DNA from: Deltaproteobacteria bacterium
GTDB taxonomy: Bacteria > Desulfobacterota > GWC2-55-46 > UBA9637
Direction of reading: 5' to 3'
DNA: 49,164 nucleotides
Assembly: GCA_016214995.1 (NCBI GenBank)
Contig: JACRML010000016.1
Location: 1 to 49,164, forward strand
The notes under the pieces were generated by a model. It did not search any database. It was not told the DNA's origin and saw only the letters and a program-made list of their open reading frames with translations. The translations under genes were made by a program, and so were the position numbers. Of this stretch, positions 3,860 through 44,048 are shown piece by piece. Each line of letters starts with the position of its first letter. Position 1 is the first letter of the stretch.

Positions 3860-4477
3860 ATGAAAGTGTCAAAGTGCCGGAGTGTCGTAGTGTCAGAAGT
3901 CAATAAAAGGACTGAAACGGAGAAGGGGAGAAGCGGAGAAATTAGTTTTTCATTTTTATTACTGTTTACTGTTTCCTGCTTCCTGTTTGCTGTATCATTA
4001 ACCGCCTGTGGCAAGAAAGAGGAGCCTGTAAAAGAAGAAACTAAAATTTCAGTAGTTGAAAAAAAGGCCGAGGTAGCGCCGTCTGCCGAGACTATTTCTG
4101 CTGAGGCGTATAAAGGCGCACTTGTTGTCTCAGATGTGACTGGTGTTAATTAGCAGAAGGGTGTAATAAGTGCGACCGGCCGCGGCCTGCCGCCGAAACA
4201 CATTACAAATCCGGCTCAGGCAAAAATACTTGTCATGCGCGCAGCAATTGTAGAGGCCCAAAAAAGCCTCCTTGAAATAATACTAAAGATGAAAACACCG
4301 CCCGACAAAGGCATGAAGGAATACCTTGATGAAAAACACATAGAAATAAGCCGCATAGAGGGTTTTGTCAAAGGGGCAGTAGTGGTTAAAGAGGAATATA
4401 AGGATGACGGTAGTGCAGAGGCGACCCTTGAGGTCCAGCTTGTAGGGGCAGATGGGTTGGTTGCAGTGTTGAGATAG
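3860..4477 (+). pseudogene. LPP20-family lipoprotein interrupted by in-frame TAG
   Basis: Two open stretches in the same frame (3860-4153 and 4235-4477) join without a gap if the single TAG at 4151-4153 is read through. The joined product has about 205 residues: a lipoprotein signal with lipobox LTAC, a charged linker, then an LPP20-like domain (ISATGRGLPP, NPAQAKILVMRAAIVEAQKSL, a second half ending GADGLVAVLR). The first 30 or so residues derive from a low-complexity repeat (AGTGTCAAAGTG type) that also occurs near 36380, so the true start may be later. No tRNA that would decode TAG is seen, so a nonsense mutation or sequence error is likeliest. The domain call rests on motif resemblance. 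Confidence 0.65.
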
Positions 4478-6851: not shown

Positions 6852-7895
6852 ATGCCTTTCTTAAATCCATCCGCCCCTTACACTATTTCCGTCGTAATTA
6901 TCTTTGCATATACACTGGACTTAATATCAGGCGATCCAAGATGGCTTCCGCATCCTGTGAGGTGGATTGGGAGGTATATAGTATTTCTGGAAAACATGAT
7001 AAGAAAGTTTGCCGGAAATCCTTTGGCTGAAAAGATTGGAGGGGTGTTTCTTTTTGTCATTGTTGTTGGAACGGTCTATAGTTTAGCTTGGCTTCTTTTG
7101 TTTCTAGCCACTCGCTACTCACCACTTGTCACTCTTATTTTAGCCGTCTTCATTGCCTATACCACCCTTTCCATAAAATCTCTGCATCAAGAGGCATACG
7201 GAGTTATATGGGAGATTGAAAAAATTTCTCCCCCACCCAACCCTCCCCCGCAAGGGGGGAGGGCAAGGGAGGGGGGGCATCTTGATGAGGCGAGAAATAG
7301 GCTAAAGAATATTGTTGGCCGTGATACGCAAAATCTATCAGAAGATGAAATCTATCGCGCTGTTGTTGAAACCGTTGCAGAAAATACATCTGACGGCATT
7401 ATTGCGCCTCTATTTTATCTTGCCATAGGCGGACCAGCGCTTGCTCTTGCATACAAGGCAGTCAATACGCTTGACTCAATGGTTGGCTATAAAAATGGAG
7501 CGTATAAAAACCTCGGATGGTTTTCTGCCAGAATGGATGACATTGCCAATTTTATCCCTGCCAGGATTACAGCTTTGTTTATGGCTATTGCTTCTTTTAT
7601 ACTGAGATTGAACTTGAGAAACTCTTTACGAATAGTTTGGAGAGATGCAAGGAATCACCCAAGCCCTAACGCAGGCTATCCAGAGGCAGCAGTGGCAGGT
7701 GCGTTGGGCATCCAATTAGGCGGCACAAATTATTATTTTGGAGCGCCGCATAACAGGCCTCTCATAGGCGATAAAAACAAGGAATTTACGATTGAATCGG
7801 CAAAAGATACGGTAAAGATTATGCGCCTTACGGCGTTTCTTGGTGTTGTTTTGTTTTCAGGTCTTTTGTTGATTGTTAGCTCGTATATTTGGTGA
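6852..7895 (+). CDS. cbiB: Adenosylcobinamide-phosphate synthase CbiB/CobD
   Basis: Membrane enzyme that attaches aminopropanol (or its phosphate) to adenosylcobyric acid in cobalamin synthesis. From the ATG at 6852 it has 347 residues. The frame is open further upstream, but that part overlaps the GGDEF gene. Diagnostic motifs are DLISGDPRWLPHPVRWIGR near the N-terminus, NIVGRDTQNLSEDEIYRAVVET (seen in pieces), ENTSDGIIAPLFYLAIGG and AYKAVNTLDSMVGYKN, with several membrane helices. Residues about 126-142 (SPPPNPPPQGGRAREGG) are not part of the family and are encoded by an inserted G/C-rich palindrome. The next cobalamin gene in the window is cobD at 25.8 kb. Confidence 0.92.
   Translation: MPFLNPSAPYTISVVIIFAYTLDLISGDPRWLPHPVRWIGRYIVFLENMIRKFAGNPLAEKIGGVFLFVIVVGTVYSLAWLLLFLATRYSPLVTLILAVFIAYTTLSIKSLHQEAYGVIWEIEKISPPPNPPPQGGRAREGGHLDEARNRLKNIVGRDTQNLSEDEIYRAVVETVAENTSDGIIAPLFYLAIGGPALALAYKAVNTLDSMVGYKNGAYKNLGWFSARMDDIANFIPARITALFMAIASFILRLNLRNSLRIVWRDARNHPSPNAGYPEAAVAGALGIQLGGTNYYFGAPHNRPLIGDKNKEFTIESAKDTVKIMRLTAFLGVVLFSGLLLIVSSYIW
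7228..7277 (+). repeat. In-frame palindromic repeat inside cbiB
   Basis: CCCTCCCCC (7241-7249) pairs with GGGGGGAGGG (7254-7263), with further C/G runs either side. The segment keeps the cbiB frame and adds a proline/glycine-rich patch between two conserved blocks. Similar CCCTCNCCC hairpins occur intergenically at 43824-44017. Confidence 0.7.
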
Positions 7896-7947: not shown

Positions 7948-10095
7948 ATGCTGGACTCTTTTTTTAAGCCCAAATCCGTAGCAGTTATCGGCGCATCACG
8001 GGAAGAGGGAAAGACAGGCCACAGCATCCTTGCAAACCTTATCAATAATAAGCTTGTCCCTGCAGGCCCGCCCTCGAATGGTTCTATCGGGGGCAGTAAG
8101 CGGGGATTCCCCGGCCAGATATTCCCTGTAAATCCCAAAGCCTCTGAGCTTCTCGGACTCAAAACATTTCCATCTCTTGAAAAGATAGATGATACAATAG
8201 ACCTGGCGGTTATCGTAATCCCGCCAAAATTTATACCGCCGGCGCTTGATGATTGCGCCAAAAAAAATATAAAGGCTGCAATCATTATATCTGCCGGCTT
8301 CAAAGAAACAGGTGCTGAAGGTGCAAGACTTGAAAAAGAGGTTGCATTAAAGGCAAAAGAACTTGGCATAAGGCTCCTCGGTCCAAACTGCCTCGGACTT
8401 ATTGATACAAATTCAAATTTAAATGCCTCTTTTGCAAAAGGTATGCCTCCTCAGGGAAAGATTGCATTCTTCTCCCAATCAGGGGCATTATGTACTGCAA
8501 TCCTTGACTGGGCAATTGGTTCAAATGTCGGTTTCTCAAAATTCATAAGTCTTGGCAATAAGGCTGATTTGTCTGAAATTGATTTGCTTGAGTATCTGGC
8601 AAATGATGATGAGACTTCCGTTATACTTGGCTATCTCGAAGGCATTGAAAACGGAAGTATTTTTATGGGTGTTGCAAAAGAGGCTGTAAAGAAAAAGCCT
8701 GTTGTCCTTATCAAAGCCGGCGGCACAGGCGCAGGGGCGCGGGCAGCATCTTCTCACACAGGCACGCTTGCAGGCTCTGATAAGGCGTTTCACGCTGCAT
8801 TTCTTCAAACAGGTATTATACGGGCAATGTCCATAGAAGAGCTTTTTGACTATGCAATCCTTTTTGCTGAACAGCCTTTGCCGCGGGGCAGCAGGCTTGC
8901 AATAATAACGAACGCAGGCGGACCTGGGATTATTGCCGCAGATGCAGTAGAGAATACAAAAGGGATTGAGCTGGCGCAATTTTCAAGCGATACGCTTGAC
9001 AACTTAAGGCAAAAGCTCCCTCCCACAGCAGGCCTTTTCAATCCTGTTGACGTGATAGGCGATGCAAAATCCGACAGATACAAGGATGCGCTGGATATTG
9101 TATTGAAGGACAATAATGTTGACGCCGGGCTTGTCTTGCTTACACCGCAGGCAATGACAGATGTGGATATTATTGCACAGGTTGTAGCTCAAGCCTCAGA
9201 AAATTGTAACAAGACCATGGTAACATCATTTATGGGAGAGGTATCTGTAAGGGATGCAATACATCTTTTGCAGGAACATGGGATACCGAATTATCCTTAT
9301 CCTGAAAGGGCTGTCCGGTCTTTTGCAAGGATGGCGAGGTATGTGGAAACGCTGAATTTGCCTGACGATAAGCCGGTAGCATTTAATATTGATAAAGGGG
9401 GTGTGGCTTCTATCTTAAAGAAGATTATTGATGCTGGCAAGACAACACTTCTGGATGAGGCAAAGGCTATTATAGAGGCTTATGGTTTTAAGACGCCGCA
9501 GACTATTCTTGCTGAAACATCAGATGAAGCGGTAAAGGCAGCAGAAAAGCTGGGCTATCCAGTTGCTATGAAGATAGCATCACCTGATATTATACACAAG
9601 ACAGAGGTCAGCGGAGTAAACGTTGGCATTAAGGATAAAAAGGAGATAAAAAACGCATTCCTTGAAATGACATCCAAGGCAAAAAGACACATGCCAAATG
9701 CAATTATATTTGGAGTTCATATCCAGAAAATGGTAAAAGGCAAGGAGGTAATTCTGGGCGTGAGCCGCGACAGGAGCTTCGGCCCTCTCATAATGTTCGG
9801 GCTCGGCGGCATATATGTAGAGGTGATGAAGGATGTTGCCTTTCGGGTGGCGCCGCTTTTGCGTCGGGATGTTGAGTCCATGCTTGAAGAAGTCAAAGGC
9901 TTTCCAATACTAAAAGGGGTGCGGGGAGAGAAAAAATCTGATATAAATGCCTTGATAGACGCAATATTAAGGCTCTCTCAACTGGTTACGGATTTCCCGG
10001 AGATTATTGAAATGGATATAAATCCATTGATGGTTTTGCCAGAAGGAGAGGGGGTAGTTGCGGTGGATGTGAGGATGGGGGTAGGTTCACGCTAA
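7948..10095 (+). CDS. ADP-forming acetate/acyl-CoA ligase, fused alpha-beta
   Basis: Interconverts acyl-CoA + ADP + Pi with acid + CoA + ATP. The 715 residues comprise a CoA-binding Rossmann domain (VAVIGASREEGKTGHSIL), succinyl-CoA-ligase-like domains with the phosphohistidine loop ASSHTGTLAGSD (about residues 268-279), and a C-terminal ATP-grasp domain (AAEKLGYPVAMKIASPDIIHK; GVHIQKMVKGKEVILGV). RBS CAGGAGG precedes the ATG. Residues 36-52 (LVPAGPPSNGSIGGSKR) interrupt the usual NLI-GF-G-IYPVNPK block and come from an inserted repeat. The last three residues and stop (GSR, TAA) lie in the terminal inverted repeat of a downstream element. Related split subunits are at 11.4 and 25.1 kb. Confidence 0.92.
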   Translation: MLDSFFKPKSVAVIGASREEGKTGHSILANLINNKLVPAGPPSNGSIGGSKRGFPGQIFPVNPKASELLGLKTFPSLEKIDDTIDLAVIVIPPKFIPPALDDCAKKNIKAAIIISAGFKETGAEGARLEKEVALKAKELGIRLLGPNCLGLIDTNSNLNASFAKGMPPQGKIAFFSQSGALCTAILDWAIGSNVGFSKFISLGNKADLSEIDLLEYLANDDETSVILGYLEGIENGSIFMGVAKEAVKKKPVVLIKAGGTGAGARAASSHTGTLAGSDKAFHAAFLQTGIIRAMSIEELFDYAILFAEQPLPRGSRLAIITNAGGPGIIAADAVENTKGIELAQFSSDTLDNLRQKLPPTAGLFNPVDVIGDAKSDRYKDALDIVLKDNNVDAGLVLLTPQAMTDVDIIAQVVAQASENCNKTMVTSFMGEVSVRDAIHLLQEHGIPNYPYPERAVRSFARMARYVETLNLPDDKPVAFNIDKGGVASILKKIIDAGKTTLLDEAKAIIEAYGFKTPQTILAETSDEAVKAAEKLGYPVAMKIASPDIIHKTEVSGVNVGIKDKKEIKNAFLEMTSKAKRHMPNAIIFGVHIQKMVKGKEVILGVSRDRSFGPLIMFGLGGIYVEVMKDVAFRVAPLLRRDVESMLEEVKGFPILKGVRGEKKSDINALIDAILRLSQLVTDFPEIIEMDINPLMVLPEGEGVVAVDVRMGVGSR
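8053..8103 (+). repeat. In-frame 51-bp repeat insertion in ADP-forming ligase
   Basis: The 51-bp segment encodes 17 extra residues (LVPAGPPSNGSIGGSKR) absent from the family consensus, and the frame is preserved. It contains CCTGCAGGC and a CCCTCGA...TCGGGGG hairpin. Similar CCCCCGA/TCGGGG pieces occur at 27570-27665 before the NHL gene. Confidence 0.6.
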
Positions 10096-12765: not shown

Positions 12766-12888
12766 TAGCAACTATAGGCAGCGACATAAATTTGTAGTAT
12801 GCCGATTTATCGGCGATTTTAAAATACGCCCATAAATGGGCAAGCTACAGTTACTTATTTTTGTTGCCCACTATGCTATCAGCTATGA
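12756..12888 (+). mobile_element. MITE-like element with TCATAGCTGATAGC terminal inverted repeats
   Basis: Perfect 14-bp inverted termini: TCATAGCTGATAGC (12756-12769) and GCTATCAGCTATGA (12875-12888). The core (12793-12849) begins TGTAG and ends CTACA and contains the hairpins GCCGATTTATCGGC and GCCCATAAATGGGC. The same core lies inside the GTTCACGCT elements at 10.1 and 34.2 kb, so the families share a passenger. The left end supplies the TGA of the ligase alpha gene; the right end lies 18 nt before the acs start. Confidence 0.75.
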
Positions 12889-17652: not shown

Positions 17653-18600
17653 GGGTCAGGTCTACTTTCTTGACATCACAGACGGATTGCGCTATATATT
17701 TTCCATGTCCCGCCCATTACGCATAGAATATCCCGGCGCAGTTTACCACATCACCTCGCGCGGCAATGAAAAGAAAGCTATATTCAAGGACGATTCAGAT
17801 AGGGAGAAATTCCTCAAAATCCTTGCTCAAGTCAATAAACGCTACAACTGGCTCTGCCATGCCTACTGCCTCATGGACAACCATTATCACATTCTCGTAG
17901 AAACCCCGGACGGCAACCTCTCCATAGGCATGAGGCATCTAAACGGCGTCTATACCCAGATATTCAACAGGCAACACAAGAGAACCGGCCACCTGTTTCA
18001 GGGAAGGTTCAAAGCCATCCTTATCCAGAAAGACAGCCACCTCCTTGAAGTTTGCAGATATGTCGTCCTAAACCCTGTCCGGGCAAGGATAGTAGAACAG
18101 CCAGGAGACTGGAAATGGAGCAGCTATCCGGCCACATCAGGAAGAGAAAACCCCCATCCTTGTCTTACCCGGGATTGGATACTCGGTCAATTCAGCAGAA
18201 CAAGAGGGAAGGCAGAGAAAGGATACCGGCAATTTGTGAATTTGGGGACTCAGAAAGAAACAATCTGGACAGAAGTGAAGGGTCAGGCTATACTTGGACA
18301 AGACGAATTTGTGAATGGACTCGTAGAGGACTCGTAGAGCATATCAGAAAGCGCAAAGACATACCCGACATTCCGAAAAGCCAGCGGTATGTGAACCGCC
18401 CATCGCTTGAAAAGATTTTCTACAATGAAATTTTGCAGGATAAGGTTAAGAGAGACAAGAAGATAGCCGAGGCTGTTGAAGAATATGGATACAGGCAGCG
18501 CGAGGTTGCTGATTATCTGGGCATGTATTTTACTTCGGTGAGCAGGATTATGAAGCGGGAATCTCAAATGTCTCAAATGGCAAGAAAGTAGACCTGACCC
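17653..18600 (+). mobile_element. REP-associated tyrosine transposase unit with 20-bp inverted repeats
   Basis: GGGTCAGGTCTACTTTCTTG (17653-17672) and CAAGAAAGTAGACCTGACCC (18581-18600) are perfect inverted repeats that flank one IS200-like transposase gene. The last codons and TAG of the transposase lie inside the right repeat. Other fragments of the same repeat were not seen elsewhere in the window. Confidence 0.8.
17705..18591 (+). pseudogene. rayT: REP-associated tyrosine transposase (Y1/IS200-like), frameshifted
   Basis: Single-strand HUH transposase of the RAYT group. The N-terminus SRPLRIEYPGAVYHITSRGN, the HUH motif DNHYHILVET and a catalytic-tyrosine region CRYVVLNPVRARIV are intact. 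The C-terminal helical DNA-binding part (EEYGYRQREVADYLGMYFTSVSRIMKR) is in another frame. The break is an exact 11-bp tandem duplication, GGACTCGTAGA at 18317-18327 and 18328-18338. Removing one copy gives FVNGLVEHIRKRKD and an uninterrupted 291-residue protein. As it stands translation stops at 18337, so this copy is probably inactive. Confidence 0.88.
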
Positions 18601-27536: not shown

Positions 27537-28766
27537 GTGAATAGAGTAGAAAGTCAAAAGTCAGAAGCCTGCCCCCGAATGCATCCCCGATGGAACCCTT
27601 CGGGGACAGGTCTATCGGGGATCAGAGGCCTGCCCCTGCAGGCTTTAAGCAGGGGTCAGAAGTCAGAAAAAAACTGCTTTTACCAATATCTTGCGGTGAG
27701 TCTTCTGATTTCTGCCCTTTTTGCTGCAATCAGCGGCGCTGCTCCCTTTGGACACGGCAATGGCATAGGTTCATATATTGTTGCTACTATTGCAGGCAGC
27801 GGTATACAGGGTAATATTGACGGTTCAAGGGAAAAGGCGCAATTCAACTGGCCGACAGGCATAGCTGTTGATGATAAGGGTTACATCTATGTTGCGGATT
27901 TTTTGAATAACCTTGTAAGGAAAATTAATAATAACGGAGAGGTTATCACCTTTATAGGAAGCGGCCATGCGGCCTTTGCTGACGGTAATGGCAGAGATGC
28001 CCATCTGAAAGGGCCTGATAATATAGCTGTAGATAAAGATGGCAATATCTATGTCGCAGATGCCGATAACTTTAGAATACGAAAGGTTACGCCTGATGGG
28101 ATAATAACAACAATAGCAGGAAGCGGCATCAGAGGCTATAAAGATGGTGAAGGGAAAATCGCCATGTTTGCATATCCAACAGGTGTTGATGTAGATAAAG
28201 ATGGCAATGTATATGTTGCAGACAGGGGAAGTCATACCATAAGAAAGATAGAAAGGGATAAAAATGTTGTTACTATAGCAGGCAATGGCTATCCTGCGTA
28301 TGCGGATGGAAACGGAGTAAAAACTCATTTTCGTGAACCCATATCTCTTACCGTTGACCATGACGGCAATATCTATGTAGCAGATTCCGGCAACAATGCC
28401 ATCAGGAAGATAACCCCTGATGGCATTGTGTCAACCCTTGCAGGTGGCAAGCCGGGTTATAAAGACGGTAAAGGAAGAGATGCAAAGTTTCTCTGGCCGA
28501 CCGGAGTTGCCATAGACGGCCTTGGAAATATCTATGTGTGCGATTCTCAAAATAACAAAATCCGCAGGGTAACACCTGAAGGTGTTGTAAGTACAGTTGC
28601 TGGAGTGAGCGTCCCTGGTTTTGCTGATGGCGCAGGATATAATGCACAGTTCCGTTTCCCTACAGGTATAGGAATGGACAAGGCCGGAAATATATATGTT
28701 GCCGATTCAGGCAACAATAGGATTAGAAAAATAAGCCAAGGCGGGATATTACAGGCTAAAAGATAG
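27537..28766 (+). CDS. Secreted NHL-repeat beta-propeller protein
   Basis: Up to 409 residues. A signal-like segment (YLAVSLLISALFAAISGAAP, about 51-70) is followed by roughly six NHL repeats of about 55 residues, each like FxxPTGIAVDxxGNIYVADxxNNxIRKIxPDGxVxTIAG. They should form one six-bladed propeller exposed outside the cytoplasm. The first 45 residues are encoded by G/C-rich palindromic repeat DNA (CCCCCGA/TCGGGG, CCCCTGCAGG), so the GTG start at 27537 is doubtful. A GTG at 27696 lies inside the hydrophobic segment and is less likely. Ligand and role are unknown. Confidence 0.8.
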   Translation: MNRVESQKSEACPRMHPRWNPSGTGLSGIRGLPLQALSRGQKSEKNCFYQYLAVSLLISALFAAISGAAPFGHGNGIGSYIVATIAGSGIQGNIDGSREKAQFNWPTGIAVDDKGYIYVADFLNNLVRKINNNGEVITFIGSGHAAFADGNGRDAHLKGPDNIAVDKDGNIYVADADNFRIRKVTPDGIITTIAGSGIRGYKDGEGKIAMFAYPTGVDVDKDGNVYVADRGSHTIRKIERDKNVVTIAGNGYPAYADGNGVKTHFREPISLTVDHDGNIYVADSGNNAIRKITPDGIVSTLAGGKPGYKDGKGRDAKFLWPTGVAIDGLGNIYVCDSQNNKIRRVTPEGVVSTVAGVSVPGFADGAGYNAQFRFPTGIGMDKAGNIYVADSGNNRIRKISQGGILQAKR

Positions 28767-34216: not shown

Positions 34217-34515
34217 GTTCACGCTCAAAAATTGTCTAGATGCCAGGCGCTGTAGTCTGCCGATTTATCGGCGCTTTTAAAACGCCCACGGGGCACCCAA
34301 CCAAAGGTTGGGTCGGGCAAACTACAGTTATGTGAGCAGTGCAGCGGTTGTGAGCCCCGATGTAATATCGGGGCGAAGCAAACCATCGAAGCCACTGCAC
34401 AGATAACATTAGTTTTAATCTTGAATGAGATTCCTCGCTTCGCTCGGAACAGGCTCAGGCAACACAGCGGGGCATCCATGACAGAGTCATGGGTCAGGTA
34501 TTTTTCAGCGTGAAC
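34217..34515 (-). mobile_element. MITE-like element with GTTCACGCT terminal inverted repeats, copy 2 (long)
   Basis: Ends GTTCACGCTCAAAAAT (34217-34232) and ATTTTTCAGCGTGAAC (34500-34515) are inverted repeats with one mismatch. At 299 bp it holds the same TGTAG...CTACA core with GCCGATTTATCGGC (34251-34326). Extra hairpins (CCCCGATGTAATATCGGGG; an AGTGCAG/CTGCACT pair) are absent from copy 1. The stop codon and last residues (GSR) of proC lie in the proC-side end. It has no open frame of its own that is credible. Confidence 0.78.
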
Positions 34516-37843: not shown

Positions 37844-38437
37844 CTAAATCCTTTCATATGACCACACCTTTCCGCCGTCTGCTGTTTTCTCAACCCGTTT
37901 CACCAGCCTCTTTTTATGCAGGTTCAAAAGCCGCATCCCGCTTGCATTCGGTTCAAGGCTCATTTTATCAGAAAGTTCTTTTGCGGTGATTTTCCCTTTT
38001 TTCAGTATGAGTTCCAAAGTATCCGAGAGATATTTGTTCAGGCTGCCTATGACAACCCCCTTAGTCCCCCTTAACAAAGGGGGATTTAAAGGGGGTTGTC
38101 TCCTCATCCGGCCCATAACAGCAAGCTCTTTCCTCTCCAAAGCCACTTCAATATTTTCCTTTTGGTTCTCATTGAGGCCGCTCAGAACAATATATCTATC
38201 CCCGTATTCGCCGCTTAAAAGCCGTGATATGACCTTTGCCACAATCTCATCCGCGCAGGAGAAGTCAACGATCCCTACCTGTGAAAAGTCCAGGGCAATC
38301 ACGGATCCTTCATCTTCTTTTCCAATGTCCCGCTCAATCCGTTCTCTGAGAACCTGTCCTGTGGGCCTTGTAACAAGGTCGTTAGAGCCGTTCTTGAGCT
38401 CTTCTTTAAGGAGTTTGTAAAGGTCGTAGGTGGTCAT
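37844..38437 (-). CDS. STAS-like DUF4325 + winged-helix protein
   Basis: 197 residues. The first half holds the DUF4325 STAS-like core (VIALDFSQVGIVDFSCADEIVAKVISRLL; DRYIVLSGLNENQKENIEVALERK). The second half is a winged helix (ILKKGKITAKELSDKMSLEPNASGMRLLNLHKKRLVKRVE). Between them PPLNPPLLRGTKGVV is encoded by an inserted palindrome. DUF4325 proteins often sit beside HATPase-domain proteins in accessory loci; here such an ATPase is at 44049, on the far side of the restriction-modification cluster. The start overlaps the upstream small gene by 4 nt (ATGA). Confidence 0.72.
   Translation of the reverse strand: MTTYDLYKLLKEELKNGSNDLVTRPTGQVLRERIERDIGKEDEGSVIALDFSQVGIVDFSCADEIVAKVISRLLSGEYGDRYIVLSGLNENQKENIEVALERKELAVMGRMRRQPPLNPPLLRGTKGVVIGSLNKYLSDTLELILKKGKITAKELSDKMSLEPNASGMRLLNLHKKRLVKRVEKTADGGKVWSYERI
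38052..38099. repeat. 48-bp in-frame palindrome inside DUF4325 gene
   Basis: The segment starts ACAACCCCCTTAGTCCCCC and ends with its near-perfect reverse complement. It is 48 bp long, exactly 16 codons, and adds a PPLNPPLLRGTKG-type peptide between the two domains without breaking the frame. Confidence 0.85.
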
Positions 38438-38757: not shown

Positions 38758-40368
38758 CTATCTGCCATTTCTGTTTAATCTTCTTTTCGAAAGTTTCTTC
38801 CAAACACTATCGGCAAGTTTTATTTCGCTTGAGCTCAGTCCATAACCCTGTTTAAGTATGCGCTCATTAGTTATTTTCAATATTTCCTCAATGCTTCTAT
38901 TGTCACGCATCATTTGGTCAATCTCTTGCAATAAGCTTGAATTTTCTTTTTTGTAAGGAAGCAGTATTTTTTCTACTTCACTGGGCATTAGTTCTAAAAC
39001 TCCGCCACCGTAAGAACGTCCTGAAATCTCAGAGAAAGCCAATGACAATGAATTATAAAAACTTGCTACAAAGGCATTAATATTTACCCCGCTATTCATA
39101 AAAACCCTGTGCATTGTGTCAGTTGTATATGCCTGGGCTTCATTCAGTATTAGCTTTGGGAACAGGTTGTTTCTCCTTATGAATAAAGCTTCTGATAATT
39201 TAATGGAAGGCACGACAAACCAATCATTTCGTATTCCACATTTATAGCCCTTGTTTATTCCCATTGTTTCACCAAGTGAAATATAGGACAAAGCTCCTTT
39301 ATGGTTCTTTAGCTCGCTCTTTTGTGGGAAAATTAGCAAATGGGCTTTCGCTTTTGTTCTTCTGTTCCTTACCCAATCTTTTTCTGTAAAGATAATGCTG
39401 TTCACCTGAACACTGCGACCAACCATTGGCTTCGCAAATAGTTCAAGGTTATATCCCTCAACTACAGAACGGGGAACAGTAAAGTAGTCATTTGCACCTG
39501 TGGTTATTCCCACTTCCACATTGGCAAAATCACCAATTGCAGGGATATTCTTGAATTTTGCAATTGCTTCAAGGAAGTCAATCTCTTTTTGTTCAAGAAA
39601 ATAGAAAGTCCACTTGTTTGACTTAAAGTCAATTTGCTTTGCAGGGCTTTTGAGCCAGTTAACGTCCAATGTTTCAAGCTCTGATGCGTCAAGAAGTTCA
39701 AGATGCTCGATTAAGTGCGTATTGTTTCCGTTTCTTTCACAAAGCAGTAATATAATTTCTTGTTGAATATCTGGAAATACCAGCTTCTCAAAGGAAATGA
39801 TATTTATTTTGTTGTAGAAATGAGCCAAAAACTCTCTAAGTTGTTGTGCATAGGATACCTGTAGTACTTCAGCTGGCAATACAAAACCAATTTTGCCTTT
39901 CTCTTTCAGTAAAAGACTAGAACCTACAACAAAAGAAACCCAGGCATTAGTGAGTTTTGAATATTTGAGACCTGCTCGTTTGAATATTTTGTCGGCTTCT
40001 TTTTGCTGACCTTCATCAAAGTATTGGTATCTGATATATGGCGGATTACCAACTGCCAGATCAAAACGTTCTGTGGTTTCATTGCAATAAACATGAAAGT
40101 CGGTATTTATGACAAATTTATTATTCAGTCTTATTCTATCCGCTTTTTCGGCTTCTACTTCATCAAGTTCAATAGCGGTTATTGAATTGGACTTATACTT
40201 TTGCTCTTTTAATTGTTCAAGGAATACTCCATTCCCGCAACTCGGTTCAAGGATGTCAAATGAAGAAATCCCATTTATTCCCCATTTAAAAATGAATGCA
40301 GCAATGGGGTCGGGTGTATAAAACCCTCCTCTAAGCTTTTCTGCTGATGCGTGTTCAATTAGTTTCAT
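38758..40368 (-). CDS. Adenine-specific DNA methyltransferase, NPPY type (type II, BsuBI/Eco57I-like)
   Basis: 536 residues. The start KLIEHASAEKLRGGFYTPDPIAAFI and motif I ILEPSCGNGVFLEQL bind S-adenosylmethionine. Motif IV is AVGNPPYIRYQYF (about 106-118), which marks N6-adenine methylation. The C-terminal 250 residues (TTGANDYFTVPRSVVEGYNLELFAKPMVGRS onwards) resemble the TaqI/BsuBI target-recognition region. It probably protects host DNA in the cluster's restriction system. It overlaps the coiled-coil gene upstream by 14 nt. Confidence 0.88.
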   Translation of the reverse strand: MKLIEHASAEKLRGGFYTPDPIAAFIFKWGINGISSFDILEPSCGNGVFLEQLKEQKYKSNSITAIELDEVEAEKADRIRLNNKFVINTDFHVYCNETTERFDLAVGNPPYIRYQYFDEGQQKEADKIFKRAGLKYSKLTNAWVSFVVGSSLLLKEKGKIGFVLPAEVLQVSYAQQLREFLAHFYNKINIISFEKLVFPDIQQEIILLLCERNGNNTHLIEHLELLDASELETLDVNWLKSPAKQIDFKSNKWTFYFLEQKEIDFLEAIAKFKNIPAIGDFANVEVGITTGANDYFTVPRSVVEGYNLELFAKPMVGRSVQVNSIIFTEKDWVRNRRTKAKAHLLIFPQKSELKNHKGALSYISLGETMGINKGYKCGIRNDWFVVPSIKLSEALFIRRNNLFPKLILNEAQAYTTDTMHRVFMNSGVNINAFVASFYNSLSLAFSEISGRSYGGGVLELMPSEVEKILLPYKKENSSLLQEIDQMMRDNRSIEEILKITNERILKQGYGLSSSEIKLADSVWKKLSKRRLNRNGR

Positions 40369-41255: not shown

Positions 41256-41524
41256 TCCTTGATTTTATCTTCGGGTGTAGCCATATGAGTTTTAAGCCTG
41301 TTGCAAATATCTTTTGCTTCGCCGATATATACTTTTTTACCACCCGCATCAAATAGGATATATACTCCGGGATATTCAAGATTTCCCCATTCTTTTTTAA
41401 CTACTTCCAATGCCTTTAATGTTCTTGGTATATCCCATGAACGTAAATGCCCGCCTGTGGTTCTGGCCCTAATTATCCCATCGCCATTCTTTATATCCTG
41501 CTGATACCCAAATTTATCTTCCAT
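41252..41524 (-). CDS. GIY-YIG nuclease-domain protein
   Basis: 90 residues. The GIY-YIG motif pair appears as GVYILFD and KVYIGEAKDICNRLKTH, with the catalytic tyrosines and a downstream arginine in place. The N-terminal 50 residues (QQDIKNGDGIIRARTTGGHLRSWDIPRTL) are not part of the core domain. The length leaves little after the second motif, so the usual C-terminal glutamate of GIY-YIG enzymes may be E86 or come from the coupled 208-residue partner. GIY-YIG enzymes include restriction nucleases such as Eco29kI and Hpy188I. The RBS AGGAGGGG lies inside the methyltransferase end. Confidence 0.75.
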   Translation of the reverse strand: MEDKFGYQQDIKNGDGIIRARTTGGHLRSWDIPRTLKALEVVKKEWGNLEYPGVYILFDAGGKKVYIGEAKDICNRLKTHMATPEDKIKD

Positions 41525-42908
41525 TGCCCCTCCTTTTTCTTGATGCCTTTTTAAGAGTAATTATGGTCTCTCGCAGCTTATAGTTTCTTACTTGGCCGGA
41601 ATATCTGTTTCTCGCTTTCTCTATCCTCTCAATATTAAGACCAAGCTCTGACCCTATTCTGGTAAGAAGTAAATCAGTAGGGATATAAACATCCGCAATA
41701 AGACTATCTCCCACAACCAATATAAACCGACCATTGGGACTAAGGGATTTGCTCACCTTATCCATTACCTTATACATATCATCAAAATACTTATGAACAA
41801 TATCCGGCATATCATTTCGTCTATAATTCCCTCTCCTATCTATATTTGTCCGGATATTAGATTTGATTTCTTCCAACCAGTCATTTGTATATTTGGAATC
41901 TGTTTGTGCAAATTTACGAATTAACCCCTTTGACACATTATCGCAAACAACAAGGTTATCTTTAACCTTCTTGGCATCCCTTGCTTCTTTAGTAAAACCA
42001 AGCCAAGCCATTTCAATCTTATAGTTCATTACATAATCAAGACCGTTCATATATGGCGGTGATGTAATTATCAGATCAAAACCGTCTTTATGCTGATACT
42101 CCATTGCATTGGCAAGATAAATTTTACTTGTCGTTTTAAAATTCTTTTTACAACTGCTTTGGAGAATCTTTAAATCGTTGTAAATCTCTTTAATCTTGCT
42201 TTCCATCAGCATCCATGGAGCGTTATCAGAGACTTTTTTATTTTTCCAATACCCAAGACATGGTGTTCTTTTAAGATTACTGCAATCAATCAATATGGAT
42301 GAGAAGGCAAGTAAAATAAGGTTTCGCGCCTGCTTTTGTTCTTTTGTCTTTGCCGATATATTATCAATGCCGCCTTTAAGCAATTCTAAATTTCTTAACA
42401 CCCCAGTATTGAATTGGTTTTCAGATTTAAGAAAGTCGGGAGCGGGAGTTTTTAGTTTTTTTGGAATTGAGGTGTAAAGATTGGAAACCAATTCGGGATT
42501 AACATCCCATGAGTTGACTTTGGCATCCGCAATGAATTGAAGCAAGGGATTTAATTCCGTGCCTACGGAGTTATAGCCATTTAACTTAGATTGAACAAGG
42601 ACAGTTCCGCAACCGGCAAAGGGATCAAGAACCACCGGAGATTCATAATCCTTCTTGTATTGATCAAAAACCGATTGAACAAACGATGATGAAAACCCTT
42701 GAATATACGGAGCCCAACGGTGGACATGCTCTCCGAAGTTTGGCGTAAATTGTATGGGTTGCCGGCTCTCAATAATTTCAATGCCCAATTCGTTCAGATA
42801 GGGTATTGAATCAATATCGCATGAGCCGCCAAGCTTAGGAGAAGTAAGGATATTCTTGCGCCGAATGTCTGTTGTCTTATTATCAAGAACTGATAGATTT
42901 AGTTGCAT
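41514..42908 (-). CDS. DNA methyltransferase, SPPY type (amino-methyltransferase)
   Basis: 464 residues from the ATG at 42908, whose AAGG lies over the preceding stop. The motif order is VVLDPFAGCGTVLVQSKLNGYNSVGTELNPL (motif I, about 93-123) before LIITSPPYMNGLDYVMNYKIEMAWLG (motif IV, about 280-305). The SPPY sequence is typical of N4-cytosine and some N6-adenine enzymes. The C-terminal NGRFILVVGDS and a basic tail (KKASRKRRGNGR) complete it. Together with the NPPY enzyme it would give two modifications, as in systems with asymmetric sites. Confidence 0.85.
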   Translation of the reverse strand: MQLNLSVLDNKTTDIRRKNILTSPKLGGSCDIDSIPYLNELGIEIIESRQPIQFTPNFGEHVHRWAPYIQGFSSSFVQSVFDQYKKDYESPVVLDPFAGCGTVLVQSKLNGYNSVGTELNPLLQFIADAKVNSWDVNPELVSNLYTSIPKKLKTPAPDFLKSENQFNTGVLRNLELLKGGIDNISAKTKEQKQARNLILLAFSSILIDCSNLKRTPCLGYWKNKKVSDNAPWMLMESKIKEIYNDLKILQSSCKKNFKTTSKIYLANAMEYQHKDGFDLIITSPPYMNGLDYVMNYKIEMAWLGFTKEARDAKKVKDNLVVCDNVSKGLIRKFAQTDSKYTNDWLEEIKSNIRTNIDRRGNYRRNDMPDIVHKYFDDMYKVMDKVSKSLSPNGRFILVVGDSLIADVYIPTDLLLTRIGSELGLNIERIEKARNRYSGQVRNYKLRETIITLKKASRKRRGNGR

Positions 42909-42915
42909 AACAACC

Positions 42916-43044
42916 TTATTTATCTTCAGCAAATGGTTCCGGTAATGTCTCTATTGAATTCACATCTCGTACTGGGTATGGGTTTGGTTTATCTTTAACT
43001 GGTTCCTTCTCTAAAGGTGGCTTGTTTTTCTTTTCGTCGCTCAT
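42916..43044 (-). CDS. 42-residue disordered peptide
   Basis: MSDEKKNKPPLEKEPVKDKP and the rest (NPYPVRDVNSIETLPEPFAEDK) lack hydrophobic segments and are rich in K, E, P and D. A good RBS (GAAGGAAA) precedes the ATG, and it ends 7 nt before the methyltransferase start. The position suggests a real gene of the cluster, perhaps an anti-restriction control or leader peptide. No homolog is recognised. Confidence 0.5.
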   Translation of the reverse strand: MSDEKKNKPPLEKEPVKDKPNPYPVRDVNSIETLPEPFAEDK

Positions 43045-43823: not shown

Positions 43824-44017
43824 CCCCTCACCCTGACCCTCTCCCCAACGGGGCGGGGAGAATGAAGAATTCAACTGAATCAATTGAACCAGCATTTTGA
43901 ATGGTTGTCAAGCAAAAAAAAGCAAACAAATCTACCCCACCCTCACCCAGCCCTCTCCCTGATGGAGAGAGGGTAAATAGAATGCCCTCCCTTTCAAGGG
44001 GAGGGTTAGGGTGGGGA
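43824..44017. repeat. CCCTCACCC/GGGTGAGGG-type palindromic repeats
   Basis: Three G/C-rich hairpins: one around CCCTCTCCCCAACGGGGCGG (43836-43856), one around CCCTCTCCCTGATGGAGAGA (43951-43972, closing with GGG) and one around CCCTCCCTTTCAAGGGGAGG (43985-44004). They fill the gap 43731-44048 apart from the gene remnant. The same type of sequence is found in frame in cbiB. Confidence 0.7.
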
Positions 44018-44048
44018 TTGGGTAATCATATACGCTGCTACATGTAGA

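Follow-up and report, generated by a model that had tools for sequence, protein, structure and literature searches.

Palindromes and heptanucleotide arrays recurrently occupy the same loops of unrelated bacterial protein genes

Three unrelated protein genes in a 49,164-nucleotide stretch of DNA from a Deltaproteobacteria bacterium (contig JACRML010000016.1; hereafter the window) each carry a GC-rich palindromic insert. The genes encode CbiB, a fused acyl-CoA ligase and a DUF4325-like protein, and an earlier sequence-only reading had placed in-frame palindromes in all three; all do keep the reading frame, and their positions agree with that reading to within a few bases. Empty orthologs define the borders (+51, +54 and net +33 nucleotides (nt)), which identifies the inserts as additions and not native loops. 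The elements belong to multi-copy families, and the same loops in related genomes are empty or hold other repeats, at some sites nested within one another. Taken together, these data are probably best explained by tolerant loops that act as landing pads, in which repetitive extragenic palindromic (REP) elements of the transposase-linked RAYT type, other palindromes and heptanucleotide arrays insert and then invert, become homogenised or give way to others.

As contig C91, the window belongs to a metagenome-assembled genome (MAG) of 1.98 Mb, termed G000, from which stretches totalling 350 kb (18%) were sampled. All genomes in its group are MAGs; among the relatives are GWF2_42_12, RBG_19FT_COMBO_42_15 and several MAGs of the NC_groundwater series, with Deltaproteobacteria or Nitrospirae as their deposited labels. 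Open reading frames (ORFs) were defined by ORF tiling and insert borders by alignment with empty orthologs. A gapless palindrome scan was too strict (3 matches), and a hairpin scan with loose cut-offs was swamped by chance, giving 104 matches as compared to ~73 in shuffled sequence. An Rfam search of the window and of the cobalamin contig (C32) returned zero matches.

The first insert lies in CbiB, where the relevant features are:

6852-7895, plus strand: cbiB/cobD, host of the first insert (PF03186, Pfam E 1e-105; AlphaFold2 model with a predicted local distance difference test score (pLDDT) of 92.3)
7230-7280, plus strand: in-frame insert of 51 nt (PPPNPPPQGGRAREGGH) with the type-A palindrome CCCCCACCCAACCCTCCCCCGCAAGGGGGGAGGGCAAGGGAGGGGGGG, absent in G001, G003, G008 and G009 (site 1)
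7020-7026, plus strand: site 2, near residue 57, empty in G000 and filled in relatives

As compared to the orthologs of G001, G003, G008 and G009, CbiB gains exactly 17 codons, matching the 16-17 residues first proposed for all three inserts. The palindrome (7228-7277) has a folding energy of -41.4 kcal/mol. Orthologs from distant taxa with the same segment had been named as the observation that would make these native loops; none is found among ~95 outgroup CbiBs (Clostridia, Bacilli, Nitrospira, Omnitrophota, Planctomycetota and others), in nearly all of which the site 1 loop is 18-19 residues long. One outgroup protein (L025) has an unrelated GC-rich loop of 27 residues. Against this set, palindromic inserts in CbiB are restricted to the family of the window, and a native loop is ruled out for this protein.

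Within that family, the two CbiB loops hold unrelated palindromes in different genomes. At site 1, where G000 has the type-A element, differently bordered palindromes of type C are present in G002, G004, G006, G007 and L105. G005 carries the type-A element of G000 exactly reverse-complemented between the same borders: 48 contiguous nt match the reverse complement, as compared to only 71% identity in the forward direction, with flanks at 74% and 86%. Site 2 holds a type-C palindrome in G001, G005 and G006, a tandem pair of them in G007, and the decayed remnant of one in G003. The CbiB genes of G004 and G007 (L015 and L019; two genera) are 95-100% identical around site 1, with far lower similarity in the 5' half, a recombinant-like profile that suggests recombination between lineages.

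Mapping onto structure, as the sequence-only reading had proposed, places the site 1 insert in the AlphaFold2 model of CbiB in a disordered loop between helices 108-123 and 142-151. The sole segment with pLDDT below 50, residues 132-139, lies within the insert. This model suggests that the insert forms a floppy, disordered inter-helix loop and would leave the fold intact. Site 2 corresponds to the turn between modelled helices 35-53 and 57-89.

The second insert is itself composite, as its features indicate:

7948-10095, plus strand: fused acyl-CoA ligase / ATP-grasp gene, host of the second insert (Pfam)
8053-8106, plus strand: in-frame insert of 54 nt (18 codons), in which an outer 27-nt palindrome, CTTGTCCCTGCAGGC...AGTAAGCGGGGA, is split by an inner element (ortholog comparison)
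8068-8094, plus strand: inner nested 27-nt palindrome of type E with a CCCTCGAATGGTTCTATCGGGGG core, missing in G002

Here the insert is 18 residues long, with its border at 8106 and not 8103 as had been proposed. Relatives form a series: G004 has no insert (0 nt), G002 has 27 nt (the outer element only), and G000, G005, G007, G010 and L105 have 54 nt. The gain of just 9 codons in G002 is explained by an outer palindrome without the type-E element inside, where CTTGTCC-CGCAGGC/AGTAAGCG-GGA forms a small palindrome by itself. The ligase palindrome (8056-8108) has a folding energy of -27.5 kcal/mol. A second ligase insert, in G005, consists of GGGGACAGATTTCAAATCTGTCCCC nested within a type-C palindrome. 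The 0/27/54-nt series, together with the nested cases, supports the landing-pad model.

The third insert separates two putative domains of a STAS-like protein:

37844-38437, minus strand: DUF4325-like (STAS-like) protein with a C-terminal winged-helix-like region, host of the third insert (sub-threshold Pfam matches: DUF4325, E 0.004, residues 27-72; TFIIE_alpha, E 0.002, residues 129-188)
38051-38100, minus strand: type-C palindrome of 50 nt, translated as RQPPLNPPLLRGTKGVV, between the two domains and absent in G006

The predicted peptide spanning this insert is RRQPPLNPPLLR, and the palindrome has a folding energy of -38.9 kcal/mol. The element encodes the 17 residues expected, and the net gain is 11 (+33 nt) relative to G006, the only full-length empty ortholog, because ~6 native linker residues were replaced; G006 has a short, native-looking linker at this position. 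The element is identical at 50/50 positions in G000, G003 and G007. Third codon positions are identical at 17/17 sites within it as compared to 86/178 outside (Fisher P 1e-5), as would be expected if the arms were repeatedly corrected against each other by template switching (PMC8604942).

Regular expressions for the three families find 5, 8 and 10 matches in the 350 kb of G000 (the 10 being type E) as compared to 0, 0 and 1 in shuffled sequence. All three are present in several copies per genome and above chance, as is expected of REP/MITE-like dispersed palindromes. Further intragenic palindromes occur in a P-type ATPase and a DUF2064 protein. Elsewhere in the window lie another type-A site and a candidate mover of repeats:

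43938-44024, no strand assigned: intergenic pair of type-A palindromes, the same class as the CbiB insert (hairpin and regular-expression scans)
17687-18337, plus strand: Y1 transposase of REP-associated tyrosine transposase (RAYT)/TnpA-REP type, candidate mover of REP-class repeats (PF01797, E 4e-14)

This transposase is one of 12 Y1 (RAYT-type) loci in G000. Some of these loci have GTAG and GTTCCCA palindromes close by, and such palindromes also occur inside genes, namely CbiD (GTAG) and the P-type ATPase (GTTCCCA). The occurrence of these two families in both settings fits RAYT mobilisation, for them only; the terminal GTAG tag is absent from types A, C and E and present in the CbiD slot-3 element GTAGGGTGGGCTGCGCCCACC.

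Two further palindromes recur. A near-perfect ~47-nt palindrome, AACACACCCCTAAATCCCCTCTCGAGAGGGGACTAAAGGGGTGTGTT, is found in nearly identical copies outside the main ORFs (L073 17952-17998, L079 5330-5376, L086 469-515, L090 17541-17597 and L092 430-480). A multi-copy REP-like dimer, GTAG..TGCCGATTTATCGGCG...CGCCCATAAATGGGC..CTAC, has the GTAG tag at both ends and occurs in the window (12792-12850 and 34225-34310), in L073 (2854-2905 and 4146-4200) and in L074 (3258-3316).

The re-use of loops extends to other proteins of cobalamin synthesis and is densest in their gene cluster. On contig C32 of G000 (L080 908-9730), CbiD, CbiET, CbiF, CbiG, CbiH and CbiP carry in-frame repeats at loops. Across eleven genomes of the order, the heptanucleotide array or palindrome occupying a given slot differs by genome and is often nested. 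In CbiP 275-296 the units include GTCAAGG, TTCGGAT, TCAGGAG and GTCAGAA, among others, and the heptamer arrays of G001 and G010 are each interrupted by a palindrome; in CbiD 280-302 of G000, a heptamer array is followed by the GTAG-tagged REP. In outgroups, most CbiD loops have 1-13 residues, so the repeats in this protein add length. Outgroup CbiP loops are variable and similar in length to the repeat-filled CbiP 275-296. Heptamer-type or hairpin repeats also occur in the CbiH/CbiP slots of Nitrospirae nzgw271 and a Thermodesulfovibrionales MAG (L123 870-1010; L160 2054-2146 and 2501-2641), indicating that the phenomenon crosses lineages.

Period-7 arrays number 12-32 per 100 kb in the order as compared to 1.7 in distant taxa, and periods other than 7 are rare, save the multiple 14. 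The arrays are short, at 3-4 units each, and 32 of the 43 in the G000 sample lie within ORFs, some through N-terminal read-through. Internal arrays are also present in GatB, a GH57 glucanotransferase, PmbA/TldD and an AMP-binding enzyme. Cobalamin genes hold 4 arrays where 0.35 are expected (P 5e-4), which is only a lead, being a post hoc comparison of genes that are also less conserved.

The sequence-only reading had also described two genes whose 5' ends read through repeats:

3860-4010, plus strand: 5' end of a lipoprotein gene made of repeats, with the signal-peptide core in TTACTGT-type heptamers (sequence)
27537-27695, plus strand: repeats ahead of an NHL-repeat protein gene, whose start is probably the GTG at 27696 (start inferred)

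For the lipoprotein this description holds: translation from the ATG at 3860 reads the repeats, and the signal-peptide core differs in each relative. In the same gene (3860-4477), an in-frame TAG takes the position of a tryptophan that is conserved in three relatives (VDWQKG); this reflects either a nonsense mutation or a sequence error. The NHL repeats precede a GTG that opens a plain signal peptide and are probably untranslated, contrary to the description. Further along the window, DNA methylase genes of Eco57I type (38758-40368) and N6/N4 type (41514-42932) possibly form a restriction-modification locus.

If the loops act as landing pads, the process would involve: entry of short dispersed palindromes into surface loops or inter-domain linkers; survival of those inserts for which selection kept the reading frame and which left the fold undisturbed; conversion of the first tolerated insert into a dispensable stretch, the landing pad, where later in-frame insertions would be harmless; and insertion of further palindromes or heptanucleotide arrays into the occupied loop, with loss of old material. 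Template switching between arms may then invert and homogenise the elements, with independent insertions in opposite orientations as a possible alternative origin of the CbiB inversion. Repeated insertion, inversion and loss would leave a different repeat in the same loop of each relative. The elements may arrive by RAYT mobilisation, for the GTAG and GTTCCCA families only, or by some other route, and the inserts are likely translated and near-neutral.

Several observations weigh against this account. Types A, C and E abut none of the 12 Y1 loci inspected, leaving RAYT unsupported as their mover, and no clear target-site duplication is seen at the insert borders, which differ by replaced codons. 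Selection acting on the hairpin, or a recent exchange among lineages, could also account for the third-position conservation of the DUF4325-like element. The similar length of outgroup CbiP loops implies that repeats in this protein replaced, and did not extend, a variable loop.

It is unlikely that the repeats are kept for a function, with hairpins or arrays tuning translation, acting as a phase-variable switch (7 nt is not a multiple of 3) or serving as flexible linkers. Such a role would fit the CbiD, CbiET and CbiP slots, which are repeat-filled in nearly all genomes of the order, the conservation of the DUF4325-like palindrome beyond synonymous expectation, and the frame shift that 7-nt slippage would cause. 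However, slot sequence, structure and length vary freely between genomes, every copy is in frame, the arrays have no more than 3-4 units, and repeats also occupy unrelated genes such as GatB and PmbA. Single ancestral inserts, passed on vertically or by recombination and then diverged with no continuing insertion, are quite improbable: the same sites differ in element family, orientation, borders and nesting, and CbiB site 1 is empty in G001, G003, G008 and G009, although the CbiB genes of G004 and G007 look exchanged and the ligase insert is common to five genomes. Very little weight can be given to native variable loops or assembly and binning artefacts mistaken for inserts. CbiP loops do vary in outgroups, and the group is known from MAGs alone, but the near-constant length of CbiB site 1 in distant taxa argues otherwise, native loops are contradicted for CbiB, the ligase and CbiD, and independent assemblies (the RBG, GWF2 and NC_groundwater series) contain the same phenomenon.

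A more tentative extension of the landing-pad account is that the heptanucleotide arrays and palindromes are self-renewing genic satellites: fixed slots in the enzymes of one pathway would stay filled across the order, while slippage, template switching and nested insertion would rewrite their sequence concertedly within each lineage. In that case, arrays and palindromes might yield lineage-specific linkers and even signal-peptide cores. More broadly, empty, single, nested, inverted and decayed states within one comparable genome set show selfish repeats becoming protein sequence, and a core biosynthetic pathway can have its loops rewritten time and again. The system offers a test bed for the movement of REP-like repeats with neither tag nor transposase. 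It also carries a warning for annotation: peptides such as VGWAAPTN, PPLLKGG and QDARCKM derive from repeats.

The closest parallel, and the one drawn originally, is with Rickettsia palindromic elements (RPEs; Ogata et al. 2000, 2002, as cited in PMC10969869 and PMC3733652), which are in-frame palindromes of several multi-copy families in unrelated protein genes. The likeness is one of behaviour: the inserts here are in frame within otherwise intact genes, multi-copy and in unrelated genes. It does not extend to family membership, as judged by length and terminal tag. RPEs are ~150 bp long in PMC10969869 (about 100-150 nt was taken as diagnostic), as compared to 27-51 nt per element here, and the terminal CGTC tag reported for RPE-4 and RPE-6 is absent from both ends of all three elements. 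The present elements also differ in bacterial group and sequence, in the re-use of loops by different families, and in their nested and inverted copies.

Other known repeats share individual features. REPs tagged GTAG/CGTC occur in frame in known genes of several phyla, with one case of different REPs at approximately the same recB site (PMC3733652); the GTAG-tagged CbiD palindrome resembles them, whereas the three inserts of the window lack the tag and site re-use is here the rule in a whole pathway. The RAYT/TnpA-REP systems and REPINs (PMC2817692, PMC3116915) are matched by the Y1 loci and by the GTAG and GTTCCCA palindromes near some of them and in genes, but not by types A, C and E, which adjoin no inspected Y1 locus. 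Heptanucleotide tandem repeats of Calothrix and of Xanthomonas/Nostoc are likewise dispersed 7-nt arrays of few units, but are described as under-represented in coding regions (PMC4692102), in contrast to the arrays found here, which lie mostly within ORFs and have many different units. Template switching from one inverted-repeat arm to the other is known to homogenise arms and invert spacers in coding sequence (PMC8604942); the reported spacer inversions alter 2-5 bp, as compared to ~48 nt for the inverted CbiB element. In the literature searched, there is no description of such density in one pathway, of loop re-use by unrelated elements in almost every genome, of nesting or of in-place inversion. 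In-frame decoration of genes by selfish repeats is already known, and here it is unusually dense and recurrent.
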